From Patescibacteria group bacterium (GTDB lineage: Bacteria; Patescibacteriota; Microgenomatia; UBA1406; GWC2-37-13): 64,000 nucleotides of DNA. Position 1 is the stretch's first letter. Each line of letters opens with the position of its first letter. The translations under genes and the position numbers were made by a program. Below are positions 5,608-21,784 of this stretch, in pieces. The stretch covers positions 124,001 to 188,000 of the forward strand of contig BPJD01000002.1 in assembly GCA_026004435.1 (NCBI GenBank). The letters are read 5' to 3'. The notes beneath the pieces are model-generated. The model worked only from the letters and a program-made list of their open reading frames with translations. It was not told the DNA's origin and ran no database searches.

Positions 5608-6951
5608 TTATCTATTCAGTTTTACAAGAAAAAAATATGTGAGGTTGTTTTTGTCGTCCTGCAGATCTGAGTCAATAATTTTTAGATTATATAACTTTGC
5701 TAAATTCTTAGGTCCAAGAATAGCAAAGTTTTTTGGTAGTTTTCCTTGATATAGAGCCTTAGCGCAAGCGGCTGTATCAATAAGATCTCCCTTGCCTGAT
5801 GTTGTTTTAAGTTCTGGATATTTTTTTGACAAATTCTCTTTACATTGTTTTATAACTTGTGGATGGGCTATTATTGTCGTTATATTCTTTAGTTGTGTGT
5901 CCTGCCTTATCATTAAAAAGTGTCTGATTTTAATAGGAAATTCTTTAACTATTTTTACTTTGTAATTTGCTAAAGCTCTGGCAGACTCCCAAACTATTCC
6001 TCCTCTGCTGTTGTGAACAGCAAAAAGGCCATAATCTATCTCCCCTCTATTTAAGGTTTTCAAAACTTTTTCAGTTGTGTAAAGATACTTTATTTTATAG
6101 TTTTTAATATTGTTTTCTTTTATATATTTTAGTATTGCTTCTTCATTAAAACTGCCTTTGCCTCCTTGTATGCCAAATACAGTGTGTTTTTTTGATACTC
6201 TTTTAGGTAGCAGTAGATTGTATAATTTGTCATAGGCTTTCCCTATCTTTATTCTTATCTCCTTGGTGTAAGGATTTAGGGTTTGAAGGTCATAAAAAAG
6301 CTCCCATTTATCGTTGCAGACTTGTTGCATAATCTCAGTTAGTTTTTCAGCTCCTAGTGTGTCTATTTTTGTAGGTTTAAACTCAATTTTTTCCAGCAGT
6401 CTGCCTATGAAGTGGGTAACTCCCTGGGATCTTGCTGCAAGATAATCATGTTCTTCTGGAGTTATTTCTATTATTTTACAGCCTTTTTTTTGAAAAAAAT
6501 TTTTCCAAAAACTGTAGGATCTTTTGTTTTGGAGAGAGTACATAACAAATCTTAATCCCTTTAACCCGTATTTGGCCGAGTCAGGTCCAAACATAGGATG
6601 GGTTAAAATTATTTCTGTCTTTGTAGTTTTAAAATGTTTTTTAAATATAGTGGCTGGATAAATTTTGATTGATAATACATCTATTAAGGTGTGCTGGTCT
6701 GTTATGTATTTTTTGTGTTCCTGAACGACTTTTTTAAATTTATTTATTGGAACTGCAAAAAAAATTGTATTGGATTTAGAATAAAACTCTTTTGGTTTTG
6801 TATAAACTTTTATAACATTGTCTGTTGGCTTGATTTTTGTTTTATGCTGCAGTACATTTACTTTAAAATCTGTTTTTAAAATATCTGCGAGCAGTTTTCC
6901 AAATCTGCCATAACCAATAATGCCCACAGTTTTTTTGTCTGTTGTTTTCAT
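5608..6951 (-). CDS. Bifunctional prephenate dehydrogenase / prephenate dehydratase fusion (TyrA-PheA)
   Basis: 447 residues. Residues 9-165 are a TyrA-type NAD(P) domain: G13-Y-G15-R-F-G18 fingerprint, THPMFGP at 117-123, then HDYLAARSQGVTHF (158-171), which carries the conserved Gln-Gly and Thr-His-Phe. Residues 171-250 are the helical dimerisation domain. Residues 258-447 are a PheA-type prephenate dehydratase: FGIQGGKGSFNEEA, AVHNSRGG (usual form ENSxxG), FPIKIRHFLMI, HPQVIKQC, and KNNLTYF where the family has N-x-TRF. The product would make both 4-hydroxyphenylpyruvate and phenylpyruvate from prephenate. There is no chorismate mutase segment and no C-terminal ACT domain, so Phe feedback inhibition is probably absent. 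The Arg of TRF is Tyr here, so dehydratase activity needs testing. It lies 5 bases after the small membrane-protein gene and downstream of tRNA-Phe. Confidence 0.85.
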   Translation of the reverse strand: MKTTDKKTVGIIGYGRFGKLLADILKTDFKVNVLQHKTKIKPTDNVIKVYTKPKEFYSKSNTIFFAVPINKFKKVVQEHKKYITDQHTLIDVLSIKIYPATIFKKHFKTTKTEIILTHPMFGPDSAKYGLKGLRFVMYSLQNKRSYSFWKNFFQKKGCKIIEITPEEHDYLAARSQGVTHFIGRLLEKIEFKPTKIDTLGAEKLTEIMQQVCNDKWELFYDLQTLNPYTKEIRIKIGKAYDKLYNLLLPKRVSKKHTVFGIQGGKGSFNEEAILKYIKENNIKNYKIKYLYTTEKVLKTLNRGEIDYGLFAVHNSRGGIVWESARALANYKVKIVKEFPIKIRHFLMIRQDTQLKNITTIIAHPQVIKQCKENLSKKYPELKTTSGKGDLIDTAACAKALYQGKLPKNFAILGPKNLAKLYNLKIIDSDLQDDKNNLTYFFLVKLNR

Positions 6952-6956
6952 TTTGA

Positions 6957-7385
6957 TTAGTAGTAAAACTCTTCTATTTGAATGATCAGGTAATAAAAAA
7001 CAGAGAAAACAATTACAGGAGTTATTATTCCAATAAAGTCAAGCAGTATAAAAGCAATAATACTTTCTTTTAGTGTAAGTATTATTCCAGCGTTAACAAG
7101 CGAGTCTAATCCTTGTTGTCTTTTTTCTTTTAGCTTAACAAGACTTTTAGTTAGTATTATTAGAACGATAATCATTGTTGTAAAGTCTATAAAATTAAGC
7201 AGCCAGTTATTGAAAAACTGAAGCCTTGTAGCAAAGATTAAGCTATATACAATATAAATACAAAAAATTATTGTTATGTAGTAAAGGTATTCTGAAATCA
7301 ATTTTTTGTACTCATTAGATAAAGGAGGCAGTTTTGTTAGGTAATCTCTAATTTGTGTTTTAAACTTGGCAAGAAAATCTATCAT
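6957..7385 (-). CDS. Small polytopic membrane protein of unknown function
   Basis: 142 residues with a 35-residue polar N-terminus, then three or four hydrophobic helices (YITIIFCIYIVYSLIF, FIDFTTMIIVLIILT, a shorter one near 100, and GIITPVIVFSVFYYLII). A basic cytoplasmic loop (KLKEKRQQG) separates the second and third. It starts only 7 bases downstream of tRNA-Phe and ends 5 bases before tyrA-pheA, so it is probably part of that transcript. No domain is recognised. Confidence 0.7.
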   Translation of the reverse strand: MIDFLAKFKTQIRDYLTKLPPLSNEYKKLISEYLYYITIIFCIYIVYSLIFATRLQFFNNWLLNFIDFTTMIIVLIILTKSLVKLKEKRQQGLDSLVNAGIILTLKESIIAFILLDFIGIITPVIVFSVFYYLIIQIEEFYY

Positions 7386-7392
7386 TTATCTG

Positions 7393-7465
7393 TGCCAGGG
7401 ATCGGAGTCGAACCGATATCCCAGGTTTTTCAGACCTGTGCCGTGACCACCTTGGCTACCCTGGC
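7393..7465 (-). tRNA. tRNA-Phe (GAA)
   Basis: On the minus strand: acceptor GCCAGGG/CCCTGGC, anticodon stem CAGGT/ACCTG with loop CTGAAAA (anticodon GAA), T arm ATCGG-TTCGACT-CCGAT and discriminator A. The encoded 3' end continues CA rather than CCA, so CCA must be added or completed. It is 11 bases downstream of tRNA-Gln and 7 bases upstream of a protein gene in the tyrA-pheA transcript. Confidence 0.95.
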
Positions 7466-7476
7466 AAAAGGTTAGG

Positions 7477-7547
7477 CTGCGGGGCTAGGACTCGAACCTA
7501 GACAAACTGCTCCAAAGGCAGTTGTGCTACCATTACACCACCCCGCA
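7477..7547 (-). tRNA. tRNA-Gln (TTG)
   Basis: On the minus strand: acceptor TGCGGGG/CCCCGCA, anticodon stem ACTGC/GCAGT with loop CTTTGGA (anticodon TTG), T arm CTAGG-TTCGAGT-CCTAG and discriminator G. The unusual U1-A72 pair is the normal tRNA-Gln identity element. CCA is not encoded in full (CCT follows). It is the first gene of the minus-strand transcript. Confidence 0.95.
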
Positions 7548-7553
7548 AACCGC

Positions 7554-7582
7554 TTGAATTATTTTAACATAAAATTTATAAT
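7554..7582 (+). promoter_or_regulatory. Promoter of the NUDIX gene
   Basis: TTGAAT (7554-7559), 17-base spacer, TATAAT (7577-7582), about 33 bases before the ATG at 7616. It is face-to-face with the tRNA promoter. Confidence 0.6.
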
Positions 7583-7590
7583 CTTGTTAA
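7561..7590 (-). promoter_or_regulatory. Promoter of the tRNA-Gln/tRNA-Phe/tyrA-pheA transcript
   Basis: Minus-strand TTAACA (7585-7590), 18-base spacer, TAAAAT (7561-7566), 13 bases before the first base of tRNA-Gln. It overlaps the plus-strand promoter of the NUDIX gene, so the two may compete. Confidence 0.55.
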
Positions 7591-7615
7591 AATATTAAGG
7601 TTCCTTAAGCTGTTA

Positions 7616-8122
7616 ATGGTTGCTTGTAAAGGTTTTACTCTTGCTGTTGTTGGTTATCTGGTTAAAGATAATCAAATAATTCTTGGTTTAAGGAAAAAAG
7701 TCTCCTTAGAGTTGGGCAAGGGGCTGATCTCAGGTATAGGAGGCAAACTTGATTTAATAGATAAAGACAGACTTGAAGATCCTGACTCTGCTCTTATCAG
7801 AGAATTTAAAGAGGAGGTTAAGGTTGTGCCTACAAAGTTTTATCAAAGAGGCGAGTTATACTTTATTTATCCTTATAAGACAGAGTGGAATCAAAGGGTT
7901 TTTGCTTACCTTATTGAAGATTGGTCAGGCAGTCCGACTGAGACAGAGGTAATTAAGCCAGTTCAGTATAAAATTGACGAGATTCCTTTTACCAGAATGT
8001 GGCCTGATAATAGATACTATTTATTAGATATTCTTCAGAATAAAAAAGTCTACGGAAAATTTATTTACGGCAGTGATAATAAAACTGTGGTTAAGGTTGA
8101 TCTAAAGATAGATGTTGTTTAA
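7616..8122 (+). CDS. NUDIX hydrolase, MTH1/MutT-like (oxidised purine dNTP sanitation)
   Basis: 168 residues. The NUDIX box is GGKLDL, a short insertion, then E-DPDSALI-REFKEEVKV; the final Gly of the usual EExGU is Lys here. The sequence recalls human MTH1/NUDT1 more than E. coli MutT. It opens with FTLAVVGYLVKDNQIILGLRKK, and near the C-terminus has MWPDNRYYLLDILQNKKVYGKFIYG, which matches MTH1's MWPD-x-YW and K-x-x-G-x-F pattern. Probable role: hydrolysis of 8-oxo-dGTP or 2-hydroxy-dATP to the monophosphate, preventing mutations. It is transcribed divergently from the tRNA cluster; the ilv promoter starts about 100 bases after its end. Confidence 0.85.
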   Translation: MVACKGFTLAVVGYLVKDNQIILGLRKKVSLELGKGLISGIGGKLDLIDKDRLEDPDSALIREFKEEVKVVPTKFYQRGELYFIYPYKTEWNQRVFAYLIEDWSGSPTETEVIKPVQYKIDEIPFTRMWPDNRYYLLDILQNKKVYGKFIYGSDNKTVVKVDLKIDVV

Positions 8123-8218
8123 AAGATTTGTTAGATATTAATCAAGAAATTTAATAGTATTGCATCAAGAGTACAGATATCATCTTGGAGGAGGAATATC
8201 TAGGCTGAAAATTAATTG

Positions 8219-8247
8219 TTGACTTTTTATTTTGTTTAATTTATAAT
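8219..8247 (+). promoter_or_regulatory. Promoter of the branched-chain amino acid operon
   Basis: TTGACT (8219-8224), 17-base spacer, TATAAT (8242-8247). The expected start site (8253-8256) falls on or just before the ATG of the leader peptide at 8256, so the leader peptide would be translated from a leaderless mRNA. Confidence 0.8.
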
Positions 8248-8255
8248 TGCAGATT

Positions 8256-8309
8256 ATGTTGGCTAAAGGTTTAGTTTTAGTTATTATTGTTCTTCTTATT
8301 ATCCCGTGA
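8256..8309 (+). CDS. ilvL: Attenuation leader peptide rich in Leu, Val and Ile
   Basis: A 17-codon frame encodes MLAKGLVLVIIVLLIIP and stops at TGA 8307-8309. Twelve of 17 residues are Leu (5), Val (3) or Ile (4), and nine of the codons run without a break from Leu-8 to Ile-16. It lies between a consensus promoter and an intrinsic terminator upstream of ilvE. This is the layout of the ilvL/ilvB leaders of enterobacteria: ribosomes starved for any of the three aminoacyl-tRNAs stall on these codons. There is no Shine-Dalgarno, and the ATG is at or within three bases of the predicted transcript start. The symbol is by analogy of function, not homology. Confidence 0.85.
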   Translation: MLAKGLVLVIIVLLIIP

Positions 8310-8357
8310 AGCGGGGAGGAGAGCTTTAATAGCTAAAACAACCTTAAACCCCGCTTC
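8308..8357 (+). promoter_or_regulatory. Antiterminator pairing of the ilv attenuator
   Basis: GAAGCGGGG (8308-8316) is perfectly complementary to CCCCGCTTC (8349-8357), the left arm and part of the loop of the terminator. The 5' arm begins inside the leader peptide stop codon. A ribosome finishing the leader would cover it and let the terminator form; a ribosome stalled on the upstream Leu/Val/Ile codons would leave it free to pair and block termination. Confidence 0.8.
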
Positions 8358-8374
8358 AAAGGCGGGGTTTTTTT
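8346..8374 (+). terminator. Intrinsic terminator of the ilv leader (attenuator)
   Basis: Perfect 9-bp stem AAACCCCGC (8346-8354) / GCGGGGTTT (8362-8370) with loop TTCAAAG, followed by an uninterrupted T run to 8374. It stands 25 bases before ilvE and would stop transcription when the antiterminator is not formed. Confidence 0.88.
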
Positions 8375-8399
8375 ATTTTATAAATTAATTTTTATTTAA

Positions 8400-9335
8400 A
8401 TGAAGTATAACTTTTTTCCTTTTTGTTTTTTTAATGGCAAGATTGTAGAGTTTGAGTCTGCTAAAGTGTCTGTTGCTACCAAGGCCTTACAGTATGGTAT
8501 GGCTGTTTTTGGAGGTATAAGAGGCTATTATAGAAAAGATCTGTCAGGAGTTTATGTTTTTAGAATCTCAGATCATTATAAAAGGTTTTTAAACTCCTTA
8601 AAGATTTTGGGAGTTAAGTTTCCTTATTCAGCTAAAGAATTAATTGATATTACAGTAAGTTTAATAAAGAAGAACTCTTCGAAAAGCAATTTTTATTTGC
8701 GTCCGTTTGCTTATGCTGATTCTTTAGGTTTATCTCCTAATTTTGCTGTTGATTCAGATTTTAACTTTACGCTTTATATGTTGCCGTTGGAGGAGTACTT
8801 GTCTATTAACAAGGGCTTGAGGGTAAAGGTTTCATCGTTTAGAAGGGTTGCAGACAATGCTATCCCATCAAGGGCAAAGATCTCAGGTGCTTATGTTAAC
8901 TCTGCTTTGGCTAGTAAAGAAGCCTATGATAACAACTGCGACGAGGCTATTTTCCTAACTGAGGATGGTCATATTGCAGAGGGTTCTGCTGAGAATCTGT
9001 TTATAGTTAGAAACAACAGGTTGATTACTCCGCCTGTGTCAGATGATGTGCTGGAAGGCATAACCAGAGACACTATCTTAACTTTAGCTCAAAGATTGGG
9101 CATTGAGGTAGAGGTCAGAAGCATTGATAGAACAGAACTTTATGTTTGTGATGAGGCTTTTTTCTGCGGAACCGGAGTTCAGGTCTCTTGGATAAAAGAG
9201 ATTGATAGAAGAGTAATTGGTAATGGGAAAATAGGCAAGATAACCAAAGCATTACAGGAGTTGTATTTTAATGTGGTTCAAGGTTTTGATGAAGAAGCAG
9301 AGTCTTGGAGAACCTTTGTAAGTCTTAAAAAATAA
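8400..9335 (+). CDS. ilvE: Branched-chain amino acid aminotransferase
   Basis: 311 residues, fold-type IV PLP enzyme. It transfers amino groups between glutamate and the 2-oxo acids of Val, Leu and Ile, the last step of all three pathways. The PLP lysine is K160 in [12 protein letters not shown]; the cofactor phosphate loop and substrate motifs EGSAENLF and GTGVQVSWI are intact, as is the N-terminal FFNGKIV. D-amino acid transaminase and ADC lyase share the fold, but length and motifs fit IlvE. First structural gene after the attenuator; ilvB starts 2 bases after its stop. The start has no Shine-Dalgarno, only an A/T-rich run. Confidence 0.93.
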
Positions 9336-9337
9336 TT

Positions 9338-11065
9338 ATGGCAGATAAAATAATAACTGGTGCAGATATATTGTTGGAAAAATTAATTGATCTGGGAGTT
9401 GATCTGGTCTTTGGCTATCCCGGCGGAGCTGTTATGCCTTTGCATGATGCTATATACAAGTACAGGCACAAAATTAGACATATATTAAGCAGACATGAGC
9501 AGGGAGCTGTTCATATGGCTGAGGGCTGGGCCAGAGCTAAATCTAAGGCTGGGGTTTGTTTTGTTACCTCAGGTCCCGGAGCTACTAATTTAGTAACAGG
9601 TATTGCAGATGCTATGATGGACTCAGTTCCTTTGGTCTGTTTTACCGGACAGGTTGCTTCTGCTTTTATTGGTACTGATGCTTTTCAAGAAACTGATGTA
9701 ATTGGCATAACAGCTCCTATTACTAAATGGAATTATCAGATTACAACCCCTGAAGAAATACCCTATATTGTTGAGAAAGCCTTTTATATAGCTGAGACAG
9801 GCAGGCCTGGACCTGTTGTTATTGATATTAGCAAAGATGCCCAACTTAAGACAGCAAAGGTTAATGATTTGTTGCATTTTAACAAAGAAGATCTAAAAAG
9901 TTACAGGCCAAATTATCTACCCAATATGAACCAGATAAGATCCGCAGTCAGGCTAATTGAGCAAAGTCAGAGACCTTTGGTTTTGGTCGGTCATGGTGTA
10001 ATAATTTCAGGTGCAGAGGTTGAGCTTAAGGAATTTGTTGAGAAAGCAAACTTACCTTTTGCCTGTACTTTGCATGGTTTATCTGCTTTAAGCAAAAAAC
10101 ATCCTAATTATGTTGGTTTTTTAGGCATGCATGGTAATTACGCTCCAAATAAACTAACTAATCAGGCTGATGTCTTGATTGCCTTAGGTATGCGGTTTGA
10201 TGATAGAGTTACCGGAAAGTTAGAAAAATATGCTCCTAATGCCAAAGTGATTCATATTGATATTGATCCTGCAGAGCTTAATAAAAATGTAAAGGCAGAG
10301 GTGCCCATAGTTGCAGATGTAAAGCTTGCCTTAAAAGAGATTAATAAACTCTTGAAAAAAAATAACCCGAGAAAAAAATGGTTTAATGAGTTTAAAAAAG
10401 GCTTTGATTTAGAAAAAGAAAAGGTTTATTCTCGTCAGTTAAGAAATAACTCAGATAGCATATTAATGGCTGAGGTTGTTTATACCTTGTCTAATCTAAC
10501 CCAAGGAAAAGCTAGTATTGTCTCTGATGTCGGACAGCATCAGATGGTTAGTGCAAGGTATTATGAGTTTGACAGATTTAACAGCTGGATTTCTTCTGGA
10601 GGCCTGGGCACTATGGGATTTGGTCTACCTGCTGGATTAGGTGTTAAGTTAGCCAGGCCAGATGAAACTGTAATTTCTGTTGTTGGTGACGGTGGTTTTC
10701 AGATGACAATGCAGGAGCTTGGTACTGCGGTTGAGTATAACATTGGACTTAAGACAATTATTTTAAATAATTCTTTTTTAGGTATGGTCAGGCAGTGGCA
10801 GGAACTGTTTTTTGACAAGCGTTATGCTTTTACTGAGATGAAAAACCCTGATTTTATAAAGATTGCCCAAGCCTATGGAATGCAGGCTGATAGAGTTACA
10901 AAAAAATCAGATCTAGAATCAGCTTTAAAAAAGATGTTAGAGGCTGCAGGTTCATATCTGCTAGAAGTTGTAGTTGAAAAAGAAGATAATGTTTTTCCAA
11001 TGGTTCCGGCAGGAGCTGGTTTAGATGAGATAATTTTAGAAGTTTCACAGGTAAAAAAACAGTGA
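9338..11065 (+). CDS. ilvB: Acetolactate synthase, catalytic large subunit
   Basis: 575 residues, ThDP/FAD enzyme. It condenses two pyruvates (Val/Leu route) or pyruvate with 2-oxobutyrate (Ile route). Domains in order: Pyr ([16 protein letters not shown]; catalytic Glu-54 in [17 protein letters not shown]), central FAD/Rossmann-like domain ([10 protein letters not shown]), PP domain with the ThDP motif [14 protein letters not shown] ... [17 protein letters not shown]. The LGMVRQWQ segment is characteristic of biosynthetic AHAS rather than pyruvate oxidase. Its TGA overlaps the GTG start of the next gene, which encodes its regulatory subunit, so the two are translationally coupled. Confidence 0.95.
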
Positions 11066-12726
11066 AAACTTTTTTAGTTTTAAGTGAAAACAAACCAGGT
11101 GTTTTGTATAAAGTAGCTGATGTTTTTTTAAAGAGAAAGATTAATGTGCAGTCTCTAACAGTAGCTGAGATTGATCAGAATATCTCAAGGTTTACAATAA
11201 CAGTTGAGTGTACTGATGCAAATGTTGAAAAGATAGAGAAGAATCTTTACAAAATTGTTGAGGTTTTAAAGGTGGTTTCAGCCTCAGATCAAGATCTGAT
11301 TTTTAAAGAATTGGCAATTGTTAAGGTAAATGTCTCCAGCCCAAACGTAATGCGGGATTTAGATGACTTGATTTATCTGCATAAAGCAGAGATTGCTTAT
11401 ACAGCAGAATCAGCTATTTATGTAGAGAAACAGGGAAGTGAAGATGATATTAACTCATTTATAAATTCTTTGCGTCCGTATGGCATTAAAGAAATTGTGC
11501 GTTCAGGCAGAGTAGGTATACTCAAGCCTAGAAACGGCAAAAAAAGCATTGATTTTAGTTTAAATTACCCTGATTATATTGAGCATCTTGATGTCTCAGC
11601 TATTAAAAAGATTGAGTACTATAGCAGAGAGTTTGATGATGTTGTCTCATTGGCACAAGGTACTCCTGCCTCTGCTTCTGATTCGGCAATTAGAGAGGCA
11701 GCAAAACTTGCTATTGATCAGGGCTTGGTTGATAAATACACATCTGGTTATGGCATAGATGAGCTTCGTCAGTTGCTGGTTGATAAACTAAGAAGAGAGA
11801 ATAACTTAACCAATGTAACTGAAAAAAATATAATTGTTACTCATGGAGCCGCAGAAGGTCTAATGGCAATATTTTTGGCTTTATTTAGAAGAAACGATGA
11901 GATTATTGTAATAACACCAGATTATGCTTCTCATCTAACTCAGATACGCATATCGGGCAAAGGCGGCAGGCCTGTTTTTTTGCCAATGCAGTTTGAGCAG
12001 GGGCAGTGGAGATTCAGTTTGGAAAAACTGGAGTCATCGATCACAGTTAACACCAGAGCAGTCTTAATCTGCAATCCATCTAATCCTACAGGAAAGGTTT
12101 TTAGTAAAGATGAGCTAATGGGTATACTTGATTTAGCAAAAAAATATAATTTATTTGTAATAACAGATGAGATCTATGAGAAGTTTGTTTATGATGAAAA
12201 AACTCATATAAGTTTTGCTTCTTTGCCGTCTGCTTTTGAGAGAACAGTTTCTATCTTTGGTTTTTCAAAATCATTTTCAATGACTGGTTGGAGAGTTGGG
12301 TATATAGTTGCAGAGGAACAGATAATTCGTAATATTTTCAAGGTTCATGATGCTTTGATAACCTGTCCTACAGCTGTAAGTCAGTATGCGGCAGTAGCAG
12401 CTCTAAAAAACAGCGATAGAATAACTCAAAGACTAAAACAGGAGTATGAGGAAAAAAGAGAGCTGTGTGTGTCTTTATTAAAAGAAAACCCAAAGATTGA
12501 GTTTGCTTATCCTGAAGGGGCTTATTATTTGTTTTTTAGAGTTCAGGGAGTTACTGATGATTTCAGCTTCGCGTTAAAGCTAATTGAGCAGGCTGGAGTT
12601 GCCATTGTGCCGGGATCTGCGTTTGGTTTGGGAGGTGAAGGGTTTTTTAGAATAGCTTTTTGCCGTGATAGAGAAGATATTATTAAAGGTATTACAAGGC
12701 TGAATGATTATTTAAGGAAAATTTAA
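11062..12726 (+). CDS. Fusion: acetolactate synthase regulatory subunit (IlvN) + class I/II aminotransferase
   Basis: 554 residues, GTG start in a GTGA overlap with ilvB. Residues 1-75 are an ACT domain ([29 protein letters not shown]), and 80-155 the C-terminal domain of AHAS small subunits ([12 protein letters not shown]). From about 170 to the end it is a fold-type I aminotransferase: [44 protein letters not shown] lysine K403 in [14 protein letters not shown], and the substrate carboxylate-binding Arg in [10 protein letters not shown]. The IlvN half should bind IlvB and the feedback ligand (usually Val). The transaminase half resembles the Asp/aromatic/alanine group. It could supply Tyr and Phe from the products of the TyrA-PheA fusion or exchange alanine and pyruvate; this is inference. 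No frameshift or linker scar joins the halves. Confidence 0.9.
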
Positions 12727-12749
12727 GTTAAAAGTTTATTTTTACTATT

Positions 12750-13865
12750 ATGACAAAACTAAATTTTGGTGGTATAGAAGAAAATGTTATAACCCGGGAA
12801 GAGTTTAGTTTAGATAAAGCCAGAGAGATTTTAAGAGATGAGGTTATTGCAGTAATTGGTTATGGTGTTCAAGGTCCTGCTCAGGCTTTAAACCTTAGGG
12901 ACAATGGTTTTAATGTTATTGTTGGCCAAAGGAAAGGCGGGTTTTCGTGGCAAAGAGCTGTTGAAGACAACTGGCGTGAAGGCAAGGATCTGTTTGAAAT
13001 AGATGAGGCAGTCAAAAGGGGTACAGTAATTGCTTATCTGTTGTCTGACGCAGGTCAGATTGAGGTCTGGCCGAGGATAAAACATTACTTAACTTCAGGC
13101 AAAGCTCTTTATTTTTCTCATGGTTTTGGAGTTGTTTACAAAGAACATACAGGCATTATTCCACCAGCAGATATCGATGTTATTTTAGTTGCTCCTAAAG
13201 GCGCAGGCAGGTCTGTTCGTGAGCATTTTTTAAAAGGAAAAGGTATAAATGCCAGTTATGCAGTTTTTCAAGATTATACCGGTAGGGCGCTGGAAAGGAC
13301 TTTGGCAATGGGGATTGGTATTGGAGCTGGCTATTTGTTTGAGACAACCTTTGAAAAAGAAGTCTACAGCGATCTTACAGGCGAAAGAGGCATTTTGCTT
13401 GGAGCTTTGGCAGGAGTTATGGAAGCTCAGTATAATCTGTTAAGAAAGTATGGCCATTCGCCTTCAGAGGCTTTTAATGAAACAGTTGAGGAGCTGACAG
13501 AAAGCTTAATACCTCTAATGGCTCAGAAAGGAGTTGACTGGATGATAGCCAACTGTTCTACTACTGCTCAAAGAGGAGCTTTGGACTGGAAGGATAAATT
13601 TAAAAAAGCTGTGGAACCTGTTTTTGAACAGCTATACCAAAGAGTTAAATCAGGAGAAGAAGCAAAAAGAGTAATTCAGGAAAACAGCAAGCCTGATTAT
13701 AGAGAAAAACTTAATAAAGAACTATCAGAGATTCACAACTCAGAAATGTGGCAGGCAGGAGCTGTTGTCAGGCAGTTAAGACCTGAAAATCAAGAAGTCA
13801 GAGCAATAACTAAGAATGAAAAAAAACAAATAGTAAAAGTTAGATCAAGAAAATCTAAAAGTTAA
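12750..13865 (+). CDS. ilvC: Ketol-acid reductoisomerase
   Basis: 371 residues. It performs NADPH-dependent isomerisation and reduction of acetolactate or acetohydroxybutyrate. Rossmann fingerprint G37-Y-G-V-Q-G42; knotted C-terminal domain with GERGILLGALAGVMEAQYNLL, GHSPSEAFNETVEELTESL, NCSTTAQRGALDW and RQLRPEN. The wording of the C-terminal half resembles the KARI of fungi (mitochondrial Ilv5) and Bacteroidetes much more than the common class I enzyme of most bacteria, judged from memory. The final 20 residues are Lys/Arg-rich and extend past the conserved domain. 23 bases after the fusion gene, 12 before leuA. Confidence 0.92.
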   Translation: MTKLNFGGIEENVITREEFSLDKAREILRDEVIAVIGYGVQGPAQALNLRDNGFNVIVGQRKGGFSWQRAVEDNWREGKDLFEIDEAVKRGTVIAYLLSDAGQIEVWPRIKHYLTSGKALYFSHGFGVVYKEHTGIIPPADIDVILVAPKGAGRSVREHFLKGKGINASYAVFQDYTGRALERTLAMGIGIGAGYLFETTFEKEVYSDLTGERGILLGALAGVMEAQYNLLRKYGHSPSEAFNETVEELTESLIPLMAQKGVDWMIANCSTTAQRGALDWKDKFKKAVEPVFEQLYQRVKSGEEAKRVIQENSKPDYREKLNKELSEIHNSEMWQAGAVVRQLRPENQEVRAITKNEKKQIVKVRSRKSKS

Positions 13866-13877
13866 ACTAATTGTATT

Positions 13878-15374
13878 ATGAAGAGGGTCTATATTTTTGA
13901 TACAACTTTGCGAGATGGAGAACAAGTTCCTGGTTGTCAGCTTAATATGGTGGAAAAACTTCAGATAGCTAAAGCTTTGCAGGAATTAGGAGTTGATGTT
14001 ATTGAGGCTGGGTTTCCTATATCATCGCCAGAAGACCACAACGCTGTTGTTGAGATCTCAAAGTCAGTTACTCAACCTGTAATCTGCGCTTTAACTAGAG
14101 CCAGAGAAGAAGATATAGAAGCTGCCAGATCAGCCTTAAGATTTGCCAAGAGAAGCAGAATTCACACAGGTATAGCTGTTTCTGATATTCATATAAAGCA
14201 CAAATTAAAAACTACTCGTCAGGAGGTTTTGCATATGGCTGAGTCTGCTGTAAAATTAGCTAAAAAGTATGCAGATGAGGTTGAGTTTTATGCAGAGGAT
14301 GCTGGAAGAGCTGATCTTGACTTTTTGGCTAAGGTCTTGCAGACAGCTATTAAAGCAGGCGCAGATGTTTTAAATATACCTGACACTACTGGTTATAACA
14401 CTCCTGCAGACTGGAGCAACAAAATTAAGTATATCTTTGAGACTGTATCAGGAATAGATAAGGTCATTGTTTCTGTTCATTGTCATAATGATTTGGGGTT
14501 GGCAACAGCCAATACATTAGCAGGAGTTTTAGCAGGAGCAAGACAGGTTGAGGTTACTGTCAATGGGGTTGGAGAAAGAGCAGGCAATAGTTCTTTAGAG
14601 GAGATAGTTATGATTTTTAAAACACATCCTGAGCTTGGCTTTGACACAGGAATTAATACTAAGAGAATTTATGAAACCAGCAGGCTGGTTTCAAGATTAA
14701 TGCATATGCCTGTTCAGCCAAATAAGGCAATAGTCGGCAGAAATGCTTTTGCCCATTCTTCAGGAATTCATCAGCATGGTGTTATTAACAAGCGTGAGAC
14801 TTATGAAATTATTAATCCAGAAGATGTGGGAGTGAAGTTGTCATCAATAGTATTGACTTCAAGAAGCGGAAGAACAGCTTTAATGTACAGGCTTAATATG
14901 TTGGGTTTTCAGGTTGATAAAAATAATATCGATGAGATTTATGCTAAGTTTTTACGACTGGCAGATAAAAAAAAGGAAGTAACAGATACAGATTTATATC
15001 TGCTTATGAAGCAGAGCAAAGATCAAGGCTTTTATTCATTAGAGTATCTTGAGGTATCTATTAAATTAACAAAATTAGCTCAAGCAAGAGTTGTATTATC
15101 TAAAGGCAGTAATAAGATTGAGACTTTTGCAGAGGGAAATGGTCCTGTCGATGCTGTGTATAAAGCTATAAATCAGGCATTAAAAATTGAGCCGCATCTT
15201 GAGGAATATCTGGTTCAGGCAATAACAGGCGGCAGTGATGATATTGGCAGAGTAAATGTTCAGATCTCTTACGATGACAGAGTTTTTTATGGTTCAGGTT
15301 CTGACACAGATATTATTGTAGCATCAGCTAAAGCATATTTAGATGCTGTTAATAAAATTTTAATAAAAAACTGA
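13878..15374 (+). CDS. leuA: 2-isopropylmalate synthase
   Basis: 498 residues. It condenses acetyl-CoA with 2-oxoisovalerate, the committed step to Leu. TIM-barrel start [17 protein letters not shown] (metal-binding Asp), [12 protein letters not shown], metal ligands in [19 protein letters not shown], and the flexible-loop motif [10 protein letters not shown]. From about 370 to 498 comes the LeuA allosteric domain (YLEVSIKL ... [16 protein letters not shown] ... [22 protein letters not shown]), so Leu feedback inhibition is probable. Full length compares with 500-520 residues in the family. Homocitrate or citramalate synthase are alternatives, but the context settles LeuA. Confidence 0.94.
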
Positions 15375-15375
15375 A

Positions 15376-16623
15376 ATGATAAATATAAACCTAATCCAAA
15401 AAGCTAAAGTTTTGCTTAACGGAGTTGTGATAAAATCTCCTTTGCAGTATGTCCCAAGGATTTCAGAGGAAATAAACAATAAAGTTTATTTAAAACGGGA
15501 AGACTTGCAGATAGTTCGTTCGTACAAAATAAGAGGAGCCTTTGCTAAAATATCTTTCTTAATTCAAGGAGGTTTTAAAAATGGTTTTGTCTGTTCTTCT
15601 GCCGGAAATCATGCTCAGGGATTTGCGTATGCTTGCTTTAAACACAAGGTAAAAGGCTATGTGTTTATGCCTGTCAGCACTCCGAGACAAAAGGTTGATA
15701 GAGTAGCTTATTTTGGCAAGGAATTTGTAGAAATAAAACTTGTGGGCGGCAGTTATGATGAAACCCAGGCAGAAGCATTAGCTTTTTGCCAGAAAAATAA
15801 GCTAAAGTTTGTTCATCCGTTTGATGATGAGGAGATTATCGCTGGTCAGGGAACAATAGGTTTGGAGTTAATTGAGGATTTGTCTGCCAATATAGACTAT
15901 ATCTTTGCTCCAATCGGTGGCGGAGGATTAATCAGCGGCATTGCTTCTGTAATAAAGCAAATAGACAGCAGAATCAAGATTATAGGAGTTGAGCCTAAAG
16001 GTGCAGATAGTATGTATCAATCCTTAAAAAAGAACAAACTAGTTGAGCTTAAGACATTAGATAAATTTGTAGACGGTACAGCAGTTAAAAAACCGGGCGA
16101 GTTGTGTTTTAAAATAATAAAGGAGGCAGTAGATGAAATAATAGTAGTAGATGAAGGCGCTGTGGCTGAAAAGGTTTTAGATCTTTATCAAAACGAAGGT
16201 ATAATCACTGAACCAGCAGGAGCGTTAGCCTTAACAGGAGCTTATAAATATATAAAAGACAATAATATACAGAACAAAACTATTGTTTGTATTGTCAGCG
16301 GAGGCAATAACGACCTGTTAAGATACCCTGAGATTATGGAAAGAGCCCTTATTTATCAAGGCAGAAAAAAATACTTTATTATTGAGTTTTATCAAAAGCC
16401 TGGGCAGTTAAGAAGATTCTTGAATGAAGTATTGGGAGATAACGATGATATAGTTTTGTTTGAGTATCTTAAGAAAAACAACAAAGAAAAAGGTCCTGCA
16501 TTGGTTGGTTTAGAGTTTACTGCAAAAGAAGATGCTGACAAAATTTATGATAAGCTAAAAAAAGCTGGTTTTAGTTTCAAGGAGGTTTATCCGGGCGATG
16601 ATAATTTTTATTTATTAGTTTAA
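15376..16623 (+). CDS. ilvA: Threonine dehydratase (biosynthetic, single ACT-like domain)
   Basis: 415 residues, fold-type II PLP enzyme. It deaminates Thr to 2-oxobutyrate for Ile. PLP lysine K51 in KREDLQIVRSYKIRGAF, PLP-phosphate loop GGGGLISG (about 181-188), SSAGNHAQGFAYA. Residues 330-415 form one ACT-like regulatory domain (FIIEFYQKPGQLRRFLNEVLG ... EVYPGDDNFYLLV), the B. subtilis-type short form rather than the two-domain E. coli form. It begins one base after the leuA stop. The 2-aminoacrylate/2-aminocrotonate released by this reaction explains ridA three genes later. Confidence 0.93.
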   Translation: MININLIQKAKVLLNGVVIKSPLQYVPRISEEINNKVYLKREDLQIVRSYKIRGAFAKISFLIQGGFKNGFVCSSAGNHAQGFAYACFKHKVKGYVFMPVSTPRQKVDRVAYFGKEFVEIKLVGGSYDETQAEALAFCQKNKLKFVHPFDDEEIIAGQGTIGLELIEDLSANIDYIFAPIGGGGLISGIASVIKQIDSRIKIIGVEPKGADSMYQSLKKNKLVELKTLDKFVDGTAVKKPGELCFKIIKEAVDEIIVVDEGAVAEKVLDLYQNEGIITEPAGALALTGAYKYIKDNNIQNKTIVCIVSGGNNDLLRYPEIMERALIYQGRKKYFIIEFYQKPGQLRRFLNEVLGDNDDIVLFEYLKKNNKEKGPALVGLEFTAKEDADKIYDKLKKAGFSFKEVYPGDDNFYLLV

Positions 16624-16635
16624 TCTCAACCAAAA

Positions 16636-18405
16636 ATGAAAAGAGTAAAGAACTTTATCAATGAAGGCATTCAGACAGTTAGAGATAAAGGACCTGATAT
16701 TTTTAGAAAAAGTTATCATATGTTGCCAAATATTTCTTTAATGATTGCAGCTGGAGTAATAAAGAAAGTTTCAGATGTTAACAAGCCTTTTATTACTGTA
16801 GTTAATTCTTACACAACTCATATCCCGGGGCATGCTCACCTTAATATTTTCGGCGAGTATCTAGTAAAGGCTTTGAAGAAAAAAGGTTTTAATGTCTGGT
16901 ACTGTAATATAGGTGGAGCAGTTGATGATGGCATTGCAATGGGACATTTTGGCATGAAGTATTCCTTGCCTTCAAGAGAATTGATTACAGATCAGATAGA
17001 GACTATTATAGGAGCTCATCCGCCTTCAGCTTGGATTGGTATTGGCAACTGCGATAAGATTGTTCCTGCGATGCTAAATGCAATGGTTAGAATTGATATT
17101 CCAGCGATTTATGTATCAGGAGGTCCTATGCTTGCTGGATCTGACAATACTGACTTAATTACAGTGTTTGAAGGAGTCGGCAAATTTTCAGCAGGGAAAA
17201 TGAAAAAAACAGAGCTGTTAAAACTTACAGAGTCAGCCTGCAGAACCTGCGGCAGTTGTGCAGGAATGTTTACAGCCAACTCAATGAACTGCTTAGCTGA
17301 AGCAGTAGGGTTAGCTCTGCCTGGCAATGGCACAATTCCAGCCGCAGAATGGGTTGATAAGAAAAGTTTCAAATGGAGACTGAATCCAAGAAGGTTTAAG
17401 TTGCTTGATAAAGTTGCAGACAGGATTGGTTATTTAATTGAGCATAAGATTACTCCGAGCAAAATAGTTGACAGGCAGGCAATAGATAATGCCTTTATTT
17501 TAGATATGGCAATGGGAGGTTCAACCAACACAGTACTGCACACATTAGCTTTGGCTTATGAAGCTGGAATTAAGTATGACTTAAAAAGAATCCAGCAGTT
17601 ATCTAAAAAAACTCCTAATGTTTGCAAGGTTTCACCCTCAAGACCAGATATCCATGTAGAAGATGTTGACAGAGTAGGAGGCATAATGGCTATTTTAAAA
17701 GCTGTATTAAACTACACAGAAGCTCCGTTTGATGCTAAAAAAACCACAGTAGCAGGAAAATTAATAGATTATATTAACACATCTCCTGATCCAGATGGTG
17801 ATGTGATTAGAGTTGGTGAAAAAGTTTTTTCTCAGGAAGGAGGACTAAGAATTTTATATGGAAATATAGCTCCAGACGGAGCTGTAGTTAAAACAGCAGG
17901 AGTTGATGCTGATATGATGGTCTTTGAGGGCAGAGCTGTTTGCTTTAATAGTCAAGAAGATGCGCTAAAAGCTATTTTAAAACGCAGAATAAAAGACGGA
18001 GATGTTGTTGTTATTAGATATGAAGGTCCTAAAGGAGGTCCTGGAATGCAGGAGATGTTGTCGCCGACATCAGCTTTAAAAGGACAAGGCATAAAGGCTG
18101 CTCTTATTACAGACGGAAGATTTTCTGGTGGAACCAGAGGGTTATGTATTGGTCATATTTCACCTGAAGCTGCCAGCAAGGGGCCAATAGCAGTTATAAA
18201 AGATGGTGAGAAAATCTTTATCGACGCCAATAAAGGAGTTTTAGAGCTTAAGGTAGCTGATAGAGAGATAAAAAAAAGACTTGCAAAACTGCCTGAGTTT
18301 GAACCAAAAGTAAAGCGCGGCTGGCTGTACAGATACAGCAAGAGTGTTACCAGCGCAAATTACGGAGCAGTTATGGAAGATGTTATAGCAAATATTACCA
18401 GTTAA
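16636..18405 (+). CDS. ilvD: Dihydroxy-acid dehydratase
   Basis: 589 residues. It dehydrates dihydroxyisovalerate and dihydroxymethylvalerate to the 2-oxo acids. Three Cys positions expected for the Fe-S cluster are visible: [13 protein letters not shown]-type region without Cys, [11 protein letters not shown], and [25 protein letters not shown] and [11 protein letters not shown] are intact, and the catalytic Ser loop is [11 protein letters not shown] near the C-terminus. The presence of GNCDK and CGSCAG fits either [2Fe-2S] or [4Fe-4S] IlvD; Edd (6-phosphogluconate dehydratase) is excluded by context. It lies 12 bases after ilvA and 8 before ridA. Confidence 0.94.
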
Positions 18406-18413
18406 ATTAATCT

Positions 18414-18782
18414 ATGAAAGCAGTCAACACAACAAAAGCACCAATGCCTGTAGGTCCTTACAGTCAGGCAGTGGTAGTTGAAAACTTAGTTTTTTGTTCA
18501 GGGCAGATAGGCATTAATCCTAAAACCAATCAGTTAGAGTCTGGTTTGCAGAGACAGGCAGAACAGATATTTAAAAATCTTAAGGCAATACTGGAGGCAG
18601 TTGGTTCTGGTTTAGATAAAACAATACGAACGAGCATATACCTAACAAACAGCAATGACTTTGAAACTGTAAATCAGATTTATGAAAAATATTTTCAGCA
18701 TAAGCCTGCCAGAACAACAGTAATAGTTAAGCAACTGCCAAAAAATGCTTTGTTAGAAGTTGATTTAATTGCATTATTATGA
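18414..18782 (+). CDS. ridA: RidA-family enamine/imine deaminase
   Basis: 122 residues with the whole YjgF/YER057c fold: APMPVGPYSQAV, VFCSGQIGINP, the catalytic Arg-100 (PARTTVIV) and Glu-115 (LLEVDLIA). It hydrolyses the reactive 2-aminoacrylate and 2-aminocrotonate intermediates made by threonine dehydratase, protecting PLP enzymes such as IlvE. The presence of both catalytic residues indicates the active RidA subgroup. Its stop overlaps the leuD-leuC start (ATGA), giving tight coupling. Confidence 0.93.
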   Translation: MKAVNTTKAPMPVGPYSQAVVVENLVFCSGQIGINPKTNQLESGLQRQAEQIFKNLKAILEAVGSGLDKTIRTSIYLTNSNDFETVNQIYEKYFQHKPARTTVIVKQLPKNALLEVDLIALL

Positions 18783-20686
18783 AAAACAAATTAATTTCAG
18801 GAAAGATAACATCAATTTTTCCAGACGATATTAATACAGATGATATTATTCCTGCTTGGACGCTTCAGGAATCAACAGATAGAGGTTTTTTTGCCAAGTA
18901 TGCTTTTGACAACTATGATCCAGAGTTTGTTAAGCGATCAGCTAAATCTAAAGCCAATATTGTTGTGGCAGGAAAGAACTTTGCCTGCGGATCATCGCGA
19001 GAGCAGGCGGTCTATGCTTTGCAAGGCAATAATGTTGTTGCAGTAATTGCAGAGACATATCCGGATATTTTTTATAGAAATGCCTTAAATAATGGTTTAG
19101 TATTAATAGTCTTGCCTGATACCTCTGTTTTTAACTTAGGCGATGATCTGCAGATTGATATCTTAAAAGGAGAGATTATAGTAAACAATAACAAAAAGAT
19201 TAAGTTTGAGATGAATGATGATGAAAAAAAGATCTTTGCTCAAGGAGGAGTTGTCGGCAGAGTTAGATCTGATTTAGAAGACAGGCTAACAGGTAGATTC
19301 AAAAAAGTCAGGTCTTATTATAAGGCAAAGGTCATATCTAAAAAAGGACAGACAATAGTTGAGAAAATAGTCTCGGATCACATTGGTAGGCCTGTTTATG
19401 CAGGCGATAAGGTTGAAAGACTGCCGATTGATATTCTGTTTTTTAATGAGGTTATAGCTCCTCCTGCAATAAAGGAGTTCCAGGAGTTTTTTACAGACAT
19501 TTTTAAAAAACATAATAAAAAAGCAGAGGTCTTTGATCCTAAAAAGATATTTTTTATTCCAGATCATACTGTTCCGTCGTCATCAGTAGCTGTATCAGAA
19601 GGGATTGATTTAATGGAGCGATTTGCCCAAGAGCAAGGTATTAAGTGCTATAAAGAAGGAGACGGCATTGAGCATGTAGTTTTAATTGAAGATGGTTATA
19701 TTTGTCCCGGACAGATTGTATTGGGGACAGACTCTCATACTGATACCAATGGTGCGTTAAACACTTTGGCGTTTGGTGTTGGCACAACCGATGCAACCTA
19801 TGCTATGGCAGTTGGTTTTTTATATGACTTTGTTGTTCCAGAGACTATTAGAATAAATCTAAAAGGAAAGTTTCAAAAAGGTGTTTACAGCAAAGATCTT
19901 ATACTTCATATAATAGGCAAATTGGGAGTAGATGGAGCTGTAAAAAAAGTTGTAGAGTTCGGCGGTACTGGTCTAAAAAACTTATCAATGGATGCCAGAA
20001 CAACAATTGCCAATATGTGTGTTGAGATGGGAGCAAGAACAGCTATCTTTGATTATGATAACACATTAGAGGAGTACCTAAAAGACAGAGCGCAGTTTGA
20101 GTATAGATCTTATCAACCAGATAAAGATGCAAAATATGCCAAGATTATGGAGGTTAATTTATCTAAGATTGAGCCTTGTGTTGCTTTTCCACATAAACCT
20201 TCCAATGTATCTGTGGTCACAAAACTGCGTCAGTATATGAAAAAAACTCAGAGATCAGACTCAGCTGATTTAGCCAAAGTTAATACCTTAAAAATCACTG
20301 ACGCGTTTTTAGGAGCCTGCACTAATGGCAGGTACGAGGATTTTGTGGAAGCCGCAAAGATTGTAAAAGGCAGAAAGGTGGCAGACCATGTAAACTTTGT
20401 GGTAATTCCAGCATCAAGAAAAGTGTATAATAGGCTTTTAAGAGAAGGCATACTTGAGATTTTTGCAGAGGCTGGAGCAAATATTGAGTCTTCCAATTGC
20501 GGACCTTGTTTTGGCAAACATATGGGAGTAGTAGGCAAAGGAGCTCAGATGATCTCATCGTCTAACAGAAACTATATAGGCAGAATGGGGTCAAAAGATG
20601 CTAAGATATTTTTGGCATCACCGGTTACTGTTGCGGCAAGCGCAGTAGCAGGAGAGATAACAGATCCAAGAAAGTATTTAAGGTAA
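18779..20686 (+). CDS. Fused 3-isopropylmalate dehydratase (small LeuD domain first, then large LeuC domain)
   Basis: 635 residues. Residues 1-165 are the swivelling small subunit (FPDDINTDDIIPAWTLQ, GKNFACGSSREQAVYAL, AETYPDIFYRNALNNG). Residues 180-635 are the large aconitase-like subunit (DHTVPSSSVAVSEG, TDSHTDTNGALNTLAFGVG, GACTNGRYEDF, SSNCGPCFGKHMGV), with the three cluster cysteines. It isomerises 2- to 3-isopropylmalate using a [4Fe-4S] cluster. In most bacteria these are two genes; fungal Leu1 is fused in the opposite order (large then small). The large domain has the compact archaeal/HacA-like style (about 420-450 residues) rather than the 470-residue enterobacterial LeuC. Homoaconitase is possible by motif, but the operon indicates leucine. 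Confidence 0.9.
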   Translation: MKNKLISGKITSIFPDDINTDDIIPAWTLQESTDRGFFAKYAFDNYDPEFVKRSAKSKANIVVAGKNFACGSSREQAVYALQGNNVVAVIAETYPDIFYRNALNNGLVLIVLPDTSVFNLGDDLQIDILKGEIIVNNNKKIKFEMNDDEKKIFAQGGVVGRVRSDLEDRLTGRFKKVRSYYKAKVISKKGQTIVEKIVSDHIGRPVYAGDKVERLPIDILFFNEVIAPPAIKEFQEFFTDIFKKHNKKAEVFDPKKIFFIPDHTVPSSSVAVSEGIDLMERFAQEQGIKCYKEGDGIEHVVLIEDGYICPGQIVLGTDSHTDTNGALNTLAFGVGTTDATYAMAVGFLYDFVVPETIRINLKGKFQKGVYSKDLILHIIGKLGVDGAVKKVVEFGGTGLKNLSMDARTTIANMCVEMGARTAIFDYDNTLEEYLKDRAQFEYRSYQPDKDAKYAKIMEVNLSKIEPCVAFPHKPSNVSVVTKLRQYMKKTQRSDSADLAKVNTLKITDAFLGACTNGRYEDFVEAAKIVKGRKVADHVNFVVIPASRKVYNRLLREGILEIFAEAGANIESSNCGPCFGKHMGVVGKGAQMISSSNRNYIGRMGSKDAKIFLASPVTVAASAVAGEITDPRKYLR

Positions 20687-20710
20687 GTTAAAAGTTGTAA
20701 ATATTAATTT

Positions 20711-21784
20711 ATGAAAACATACAAGATAGCTGTTCTGCCGGGTGATGGCATTGGCCCAGAAGTTACAAGGCAGAGTGTTAAAATCTTAAAAGAATTAGCT
20801 AAAAAGTATAAGATTAACTTTAAATTTCAACAAGGCTTGATCGGAGCTGCTGCAATAAAAAAGACAGGTAAGCCTTTGCCAGAAGAAACATTAAAGCTGT
20901 GCTTGTCTGCAGATGCAATTCTTTTTGGAGCAATAGGAGATCCTGAGTTTGATAAAAATCCTAAGCTAAAGGTAAGGCCGGAACAAGGCCTTTTAGCTTT
21001 AAGAAAAGCCTTAAATTTATATGCTAATATCAGACCTGTAAAAACCTATCCAAGTTTATACGAAAAATCTCCATTAAAAAAAGAGATTGTGTCAGGCGTG
21101 GATTTTGTAGTTGTCAGAGAGCTGACAGGAGGAATTTATTTTGGTCAGCCAAGAGGAAGAAGCGAAGATGGAGCAACAGCCTTTGATACCTGCAGTTACA
21201 GCAGAGAAGAGATAGAACGGGTTGCCAAAGTAGCATTTGAGTTGGCTTTGGAAAGAAATAAAAAAGTTACAGTCGTTGATAAAGCCAATGTATTGGCAAC
21301 ATCAAGGCTTTGGCGTGAAGTAATTTTGGAATTTTCAGCTGATTATAAATCAGTTGATCTTGAGTTTATGTATGTTGATAATGCCGCAATGCAGATAATA
21401 AGAAATCCAAAGCAGTTTGATGTGATCTTAACAGAGAATATGTTTGGAGATATTCTAACAGATGAAGCATCTGTCTTAACAGGTTCTTTAGGTATGCTTG
21501 CCTCAGCCTCTATAGGAGAGCTGGGTAACAAGACAAGAGGTCTGTTTGAGCCGATTCATGGTTCATACCCTCAGGCCGCTGGAAAAAACATTGCAAATCC
21601 GTCAGGATCTATTTTATCTGCGGCAGAAATGCTGAAGTTTTTAGGCGAGTCCCAGCTTGCGGAAAAAATTGAGAAAGCATTAGATAAAACCCTTGAGCAA
21701 GGAACAGCAACTCAGGATATAAATGAAGAGAATTATTCTACCTGCTCCGAGTTTGCAGAGCGAGTAATAAGAAATCTAATATAA
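20711..21784 (+). CDS. leuB: 3-isopropylmalate dehydrogenase
   Basis: 357 residues. NAD-dependent oxidative decarboxylation of 3-isopropylmalate to 2-oxoisocaproate. Motifs: LPGDGIGPEVTRQS, VRELTGGIYFGQPRG (substrate Arg/Tyr), DKANVLATSRLWREV (catalytic Lys), TENMFGDILTDEASVLTGSLGMLASAS (metal Asp residues) and the NAD-binding FEPIHGSYPQAAGKNIANPSGSILSAA. The family length matches. Last gene of the operon; a weak A/T hairpin near 21811-21834 (TTAAC ... GTTAA) may mark the end of transcription. Confidence 0.95.
   Translation: MKTYKIAVLPGDGIGPEVTRQSVKILKELAKKYKINFKFQQGLIGAAAIKKTGKPLPEETLKLCLSADAILFGAIGDPEFDKNPKLKVRPEQGLLALRKALNLYANIRPVKTYPSLYEKSPLKKEIVSGVDFVVVRELTGGIYFGQPRGRSEDGATAFDTCSYSREEIERVAKVAFELALERNKKVTVVDKANVLATSRLWREVILEFSADYKSVDLEFMYVDNAAMQIIRNPKQFDVILTENMFGDILTDEASVLTGSLGMLASASIGELGNKTRGLFEPIHGSYPQAAGKNIANPSGSILSAAEMLKFLGESQLAEKIEKALDKTLEQGTATQDINEENYSTCSEFAERVIRNLI

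Follow-up and report, generated by a model that had tools for sequence, protein, structure and literature searches.

Results and Discussion

The DNA between positions 8219 and 8374 of the window, by which we mean the whole 64-kb stretch analysed here, is very probably a ribosome-mediated transcription attenuator of the trp/ilv type, a reading to which we assign a probability of about 0.92 on sequence evidence. The source is an 885-kb genome of the Patescibacteria (CPR); the label 'CPR-like' that a preliminary description had given this DNA is correct, as the genus mate is Patescibacteria bacterium KatS3mg090 and the class also includes Gottesmanbacteria. Very little is known of how the ultrasmall, mostly host-dependent CPR bacteria regulate their genes, and an attenuator would offer them a specific means of control that works without a regulator protein.

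Anatomy of the leader element and its operon

All parts of the element lie on the + strand. A sigma-70-type promoter, TTGACT-17-TATAAT (8219-8247), matches the consensus at 11 of 12 positions, with the -35 box at 8219-8224, the -10 box at 8242-8247 and a spacer of 17 nt. It is the best promoter-like site within 7300-9000 and has a counterpart in relatives. The ORF of the leader peptide MLAKGLVLVIIVLLIIP (8256-8309, ATG at 8256, stop codon TGA at 8307-8309) likewise has orthologs. Of its 17 residues 12 are Leu, Val or Ile, and control codons make up 12 of the 16 codons after the start codon; those at positions 6-16 (L V L V I I V L L I I; 8271-8303) were examined by stall simulation. Arm 2, the left arm of the antiterminator (GAAGCGGGG, 8308-8316), overlaps the leader stop codon and is fully complementary to its partner, arm 3 (CCCCGCTTC, 8349-8357). 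Arm 4 pairs with 8346-8356, and sequence and arm pairing together identify a predicted intrinsic terminator (8346-8374), composed of a stem of 11 pairs, including A-T ends and one G-U pair (8346-8370), and a T run. This terminator stands upstream of ilvE (start at 8400), with which the structural genes of the matching pathway begin.

In the minimum free energy (MFE) structure of the ribosome-free RNA, a long protector hairpin, P1 (8266-8345), sequesters arm 2 and the terminator forms; a similar long stem is found in most orthologs. For 8253-8376 the MFE amounts to -53.9 kcal/mol, compared with -27.3 ± 3.7 kcal/mol in 200 shuffles (z = -7.2). The preliminary description had located the promoter, the 17-codon leader with 12 Leu/Val/Ile residues, the arm at 8308-8316, the terminator and ilvE, and each is where it had placed them. 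It had also put the ATG at the predicted +1. Because 8 nt separate the -10 box from the ATG, the predicted 5′ UTR is about 0-3 nt long, so that a leaderless or nearly leaderless transcript still stands as the prediction while the exact +1 does not.

The operon behind the leader (8400-21784) encodes the complete branched-chain pathway in one co-directional run on the + strand. It consists of ilvE, the branched-chain transaminase (8400-9335; NCBIfam TIGR01122); ilvB, the large subunit of acetolactate synthase (9338-11065; TIGR00118); a fusion (11062-12726) of the acetolactate synthase small subunit (ACT and ALS_ss_C, residues 5-154; Pfam PF22629 and PF10369) with a class I/II aminotransferase (residues 193-546; PF00155); ilvC, ketol-acid reductoisomerase (12750-13865; TIGR00465); leuA, 2-isopropylmalate synthase (13878-15374; TIGR00973); ilvA, threonine ammonia-lyase (15376-16623; TIGR02079); ilvD, dihydroxy-acid dehydratase (16636-18405; TIGR00110); ridA, a Rid-family enamine/imine deaminase (18414-18782; TIGR00004); a leuD-leuC fusion, isopropylmalate dehydratase (18779-20686; NF001614 and TIGR02087, with Aconitase and Aconitase_C domains); and, as the final gene, leuB, 3-isopropylmalate dehydrogenase (20711-21784; TIGR00169). 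All the NCBIfam-type matches (TIGR and NF) are above cut-off. Because ilvE-like genes occur in only 23 of the 144 relatives searched, the pathway is a minority trait, which bears out the earlier remark that it is uncommon in CPR bacteria.

Proposed mechanism

From these parts, their conservation, the lineage-matched pairing described below and the choice of codons, we infer how start site, translation, stalling, termination and antitermination may be linked. RNA polymerase would initiate near 8253, and a ribosome would load onto the 5′ ATG of the leaderless transcript. With ample charged Leu-, Val- and Ile-tRNAs, the ribosome should get to the stop codon at 8307 and mask arm 2, whereupon arm 3 would pair with arm 4 and transcription would end near 8374, yielding an RNA of about 120 nt. 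If any one of Leu, Val or Ile were short, the ribosome would be expected to stall at codons 6-14, opening P1, so that arm 2 could pair with arm 3 (8349-8357) ahead of the synthesis of arm 4, with read-through into ilvE and the whole branched-chain operon. If the leader were not translated at all, arm 2 would stay hidden in P1 and the terminator would form.

Conservation in related genomes

Orthologous leaders were located through a protein search for ilvE, independently of leader sequence similarity, in the 16 family genomes that have a close ilvE and intact upstream DNA. An Ile/Leu/Val leader, predicted to be leaderless or nearly so, and a terminator lie upstream of ilvE in 14 of the 16; the other two (G053 and G008) have a close ilvE with no leader directly in front. 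The 14 leaders are 13-19 codons long and contain a Val/Leu/Ile cluster, with the stop codon at arm 2 or at most 12 nt from it; examples from relatives are MFSKSIVLVIIVILIFP, MKALNLALIVVLLIIAP, MVKRNNIIVLLIKPA, MKNLMSFVLIVLLINRA and MKHNGSILVLLITR. A TATAAT-type box precedes the leader ATG by 5-13 nt in all 14, placing the predicted length of the 5′ UTR at about 0-6 nt, and the genus mate has TTGACA-17-TAAAAT at the corresponding promoter position. In family f25, which has Gottesmanbacteria among its members, ilvE is internal to the operon at the three loci concerned. The ilvE region of the genus mate itself is present on three contigs (C3, C8 and C10 of G001, loci L002, L024 and L025; BPJC01000003, 08 and 10), one of which differs in the DNA upstream of the promoter; strain variants, a duplication or an assembly artefact could account for the three copies.

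Ile/Leu/Val codons make up 105 of the 213 codons in the 14 leaders, compared with 61.2 ± 6.4 in stop-free shuffles, and their share in the other two frames is 34% and 12%. AT-rich hydrophobic short ORFs also tend toward Ile/Leu/Val codons, a bias for which the frame and shuffle tests control. The comparison across related genomes that the preliminary description had proposed came out in its favour: hairpin and Ile/Leu/Val codons are both kept, the three arms covary and the promoter position is conserved, and none of the 14 leaders keeps the hairpin while losing the codons, the pattern it had named as contrary evidence.

Similar GC-rich terminators are common in these genomes, so one might suspect an ordinary inter-operon terminator next to a chance short ORF. 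However, a promoter and an ORF lie upstream of this terminator, and the operon begins only behind it; in 885 kb the arm-arm-arm pattern is confined to four sites, all with codon-rich leaders; the scanner described below finds no candidate in shuffled windows; and conservation of the set in 14 of 16 family genomes refutes this explanation, to which we attach practically no probability.

In part of the family the V-L-L-I core shows good conservation, a point in favour of nascent-peptide arrest or a ligand-dependent stall, instead of a shortage of charged tRNA, as what halts the ribosome. Pairing explains this conservation, however, because the V-L-L-I nucleotides also pair in P1. Residues beyond codon type are not conserved, and the residue type follows the downstream pathway (F/Y, L, W, T or C), as tRNA sensing predicts and arrest does not. 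Peptide arrest is very unlikely on these grounds, although it is the least improbable of the alternatives to attenuation by charged-tRNA shortage.

Arm pairing and stall positions

Arm sets vary by lineage (GCGGGG, GGGGAG, GGAGGG, GGGAGA and others), and arms 2, 3 and 4 match within each. RNAalifold on MAFFT alignments gave a weak consensus (-3.95 kcal/mol), since the arms differ in length and are misaligned by MAFFT, and we used a permutation of partners in its place. In a set of 47 leaders, arm 2 pairs with the arm 3 of the same leader at a mean duplex energy of -13.3 kcal/mol, compared with -11.1 ± 0.27 kcal/mol with permuted partners, and none of 20,000 permutations matched the observed pairing energy.

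In most leaders arm 2 starts within 7 nt past the stop codon; in the remaining minority it spans the stop codon or lies shortly before it. The stall model, in which the ribosome is assumed to cover 12 nt downstream of the A-site codon, predicts for the window leader that the antiterminator forms with stalling at codons 6-14, is weakened at codons 15-16 and does not form at codon 17 or the stop codon. In the same model, a ribosome at the stop codon covers at least half of arm 2 in all 47 leaders, and stalls at two or more cognate codons leave arm 2 free in 46 of the 47. Lineage-matched pairing, together with the Ile/Leu/Val codons and the promoter position kept in relatives, supports the attenuator reading.

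Candidates of this kind are rare by chance. We used a scanner that takes no account of amino-acid identity and looks for an ATG with a -10 box 4-14 nt upstream of it, an ORF of 10-32 codons, a terminator no more than 75 nt away and stable pairing between arms 2 and 3. On both strands of the window it returned a single candidate, the leader at 8256, and on the + strand of six shuffled windows it returned none. Its background is also low in the 30 upstream regions of pheS, with four candidates. The window further contains a prephenate dehydrogenase-type N-terminal domain fused to prephenate dehydratase (5608-6951, - strand), before which the scanner detected no leader.

Probable leaderless initiation

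A Shine-Dalgarno-like sequence is present at only 3 of the 54 genes in the window, and at 17 of them a -10 box lies 4-13 nt upstream of the start codon, so leaderless initiation is probably the ordinary mode in this genome; the anti-Shine-Dalgarno end of the 16S rRNA, GGATCACCTCCTTTC, is intact. The leaderless start had been presented as a special demand of this leader, which does not seem to hold, because it is probably the genome default. Nor is it unusual for leader peptides: precedents exist in Streptomyces (PMC8079986), in mycobacteria (as cited in PMC13236596) and in Sinorhizobium (PMC7298713).

A GGAGG adjoins arm 2, about 80 nt from the ilvE start. It could hint at translation attenuation, in which translation of the leader would govern access to the ilvE start and not termination. 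However, arm 2 and ilvE are separated by a strong terminator with a T run, and both the distance of the GGAGG and the scarcity of Shine-Dalgarno sequences in the window speak against such a role, which is extremely improbable. Because leaderless initiation appears ordinary here, the GGAGG is best read as a pairing element of the transcription attenuator.

Relation to known regulatory systems

Amino-acid attenuators of enterobacteria comprise the trp, his, thr, leu, ilvGMEDA, ilvBN, pheA and pheST leaders. The element described here shares with them a leader rich in codons for the end product, mutually exclusive 1:2, 2:3 and 3:4 hairpins and a terminator before the first structural gene. As in enterobacterial ilv leaders, sensing would be multivalent for Ile, Leu and Val, and the logic that the preliminary description had likened to these leaders is indeed that of the classical trp/ilv type; a Phe leader before pheS-pheT in one relative (G240) resembles enterobacterial pheST. 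Unlike the enterobacterial leaders, that of the window lacks a Shine-Dalgarno sequence, has its ATG at most a few nucleotides from the predicted start site, is embedded in a P1 that spans nearly the entire leader ORF, and belongs to a patescibacterial lineage.

Outside the enterobacteria, Ile/Leu/Val attenuators are established or proposed for the ilvB-II motif of Corynebacterium (PMC10272879), for M. tuberculosis ilvB1 (PMC13236596) and for Streptomyces (PMC1262725), and Streptomyces lividans has leaderless versions (PMC8079986). The actinobacterial ilvB attenuators resemble the window leader in having a short Ile/Leu/Val leader, a terminator and an antiterminator, and Streptomyces ilvL, leuL and trpL are leaderless as well (PMC8079986, PMC1262725). 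In contrast, the window operon begins with ilvE and contains all branched-chain genes, its leader matches no Rfam family, and it has 12 control codons among 16, whereas M. tuberculosis ilvB1 is reported to have four (LVVI; PMC13236596). The ilvB-OMG and Leptospira ilvB motifs are described as Ile/Leu/Val-rich uORFs upstream of ilvB; they share this kind of uORF with the window, which nevertheless has no Rfam match to either at the gathering threshold. The ilvB-OMG motif is reported from various phyla, among which the passage concerned does not name Patescibacteria (PMC10272879). The trpL transcript of Sinorhizobium meliloti starts at its own ATG (PMC7298713), and mycobacterial poly-Cys leaderless uORFs are described as translation attenuation (Canestrari 2020, as cited in PMC13236596). 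As portrayed there, both are attenuator-type leaders whose transcript begins at the ATG, as predicted here, but they serve other amino acids in other phyla.

We found no report of attenuation in CPR/Patescibacteria in the open-access literature, which, because the search was limited to open access, is only weak evidence of absence. What is new is the presence and extent of attenuation in CPR bacteria; the mechanism itself and leaderless leader peptides are already known elsewhere. Classical attenuation would be extended to a deep branch for which the open-access literature searched describes no cases. The mechanism leads to testable expectations there, namely that translation is coupled to transcription, that genes normally start leaderless and that charged tRNAs are sensed individually.

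A riboswitch or T-box could instead sense the amino acid or the tRNA directly, with the ORF incidental. T-box-like matches do exist in the class, in 172 of 329 genomes at E ≤ 0.001, 18 of them above the Rfam cut-off. Against the whole of Rfam at the gathering threshold, however, the window matches two tRNAs only, with neither an ilvB-type leader motif nor a T-box (RF00230), and the T-box covariance model has no match in the genome of the window or in that of the genus mate. Moreover, there are only about 90 nt of leader before the terminator, and codon content tracks the pathway. We consider direct sensing highly improbable, more so than peptide arrest, and retain the attenuator. One of the T-box-like matches in the class, for example, lies at 19080-19364 of contig C34 in G099, near pheS (17546-18256). 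The idea that attenuators replace T-boxes throughout the class was rejected, since about half of the class has T-box-like matches. Judged by these predictions, the class has two tRNA-sensing layers, T-boxes and leader-peptide attenuation, of which only the latter was detected in the genome of the window.

Putative attenuators for other amino acids

The preliminary description had treated the leader as a single case. It is the sole scanner candidate in the window, but that view missed a genome-wide and class-wide set. The four sites of the pattern GCGG-CCGC-GCGGKNTTTT in this genome (none in a reversed control) are all preceded by short ORFs predicted to be leaderless, the ilv leader with its Ile/Leu/Val codons being one. 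The others precede a second leu operon, leuA-leuDC-leuB (Leu-codon leader MVLQIDNQSLALLLSAGFRR), the genes for a PfkB-family protein and DAHP synthase (Phe/Tyr leader MIKNQVFEFVFGFFYFTPAEAG), and the genes for a 618-aa protein and an M20-like peptidase (leader MKSKLVLSLIVLFILVLA). The 618-aa protein has no Pfam match above cut-off, and its one homolog in the family is likewise preceded by a leader. Within one genome, the codons follow the pathway.

For relatives, gene identities at the loci were read from translations by eye unless a family search is cited. Upstream of DAHP synthase, the scanner detected a leader at 15 of 21 family loci, all 15 rich in Phe/Tyr (for example MTATNSHRWFYFYFIFTALGGVGGNV and MSKKPFHRFYFYFYFTASGGVESYV), and leaders with two or three Trp codons precede trpE at 4 of 14 loci; like the ilvE-anchored set, these two are free of Ile/Leu/Val seeding bias. 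In the family, cysK is preceded by MNKKILVSICTCTSS. Because only 2 of the 30 upstream regions of pheS contain an FFF leader, attenuators of aminoacyl-tRNA synthetases are sporadic and not a rule.

A covariance model was built from ten ilv leaders; the resulting catalogue is biased to Ile/Leu/Val, and some of the leaders in it may be false. At E ≤ 0.001 it matches 56 of 373 genomes of the class, 32 of them in the family of the window. Matches outside the family include MLNFNLNNTTTTA before thrS, MKRFLSFLLLNFA before leuS, the Phe leader MTGKLALTSFFFFSHC before pheS-pheT and Ile/Leu/Val leaders before ilvB. Phylum-wide, only 5 of 380 genomes match, which also bounds the false-positive rate of the model. 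Two of the five are outside the class: G752 has a convincing leader, MYNNNSFIIILFTNR, and the match in G743, a terminator beside rpsO, was discarded as a false positive.

Taken together, we lean towards a class-wide layer in which one architecture, with a leaderless ORF, arm 2 at the stop codon and a GC-rich terminator, has had its codons exchanged to serve Ile/Leu/Val, Leu, Phe/Tyr, Trp, Thr and Cys genes, some tRNA synthetases, pyruvate kinase and many uncharacterised families, such that the amino-acid supply derived from a host would gate biosynthesis and lifestyle genes. Because the codon content of a leader names the amino acid sensed, leaders before uncharacterised genes are clues to when these genes are used.

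Several further loci were observed. Leaders of the MKxxVLSIxxVLFILITA type with the same arms occur in the genome of the window (G000:C1:165665-165772, L122) and in relatives (L126, L127, L129, L131, L132, L134, L135 and L140). Behind them lie varied uncharacterised proteins of 300-620 aa, mostly with no Pfam match above cut-off and one of them aminotransferase class III-like, followed at some loci by M20-like peptidases. Two tandem pairs of Phe/Tyr attenuators each precede one aromatic-pathway gene (G060:C61:47816-48156 and G016:C36:765-1142; L171 and L172), an arrangement that might give an AND-gated or a steeper response. In each of two separate families, a pyruvate kinase gene follows a Val/Leu/Ile-rich leader (MVVNNKAVAVVAVLLP, L217 in G242; MKNQVLSIVVLITPLTAVSCNN, L156 in G046), which suggests amino-acid control of pyruvate supply. 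Finally, a leader with four Thr codons, MKMNLNINGTTTTLV (L166, G041:C11:7941), precedes an epimerase of the threonine-dehydrogenase type and a kbl-like gene.
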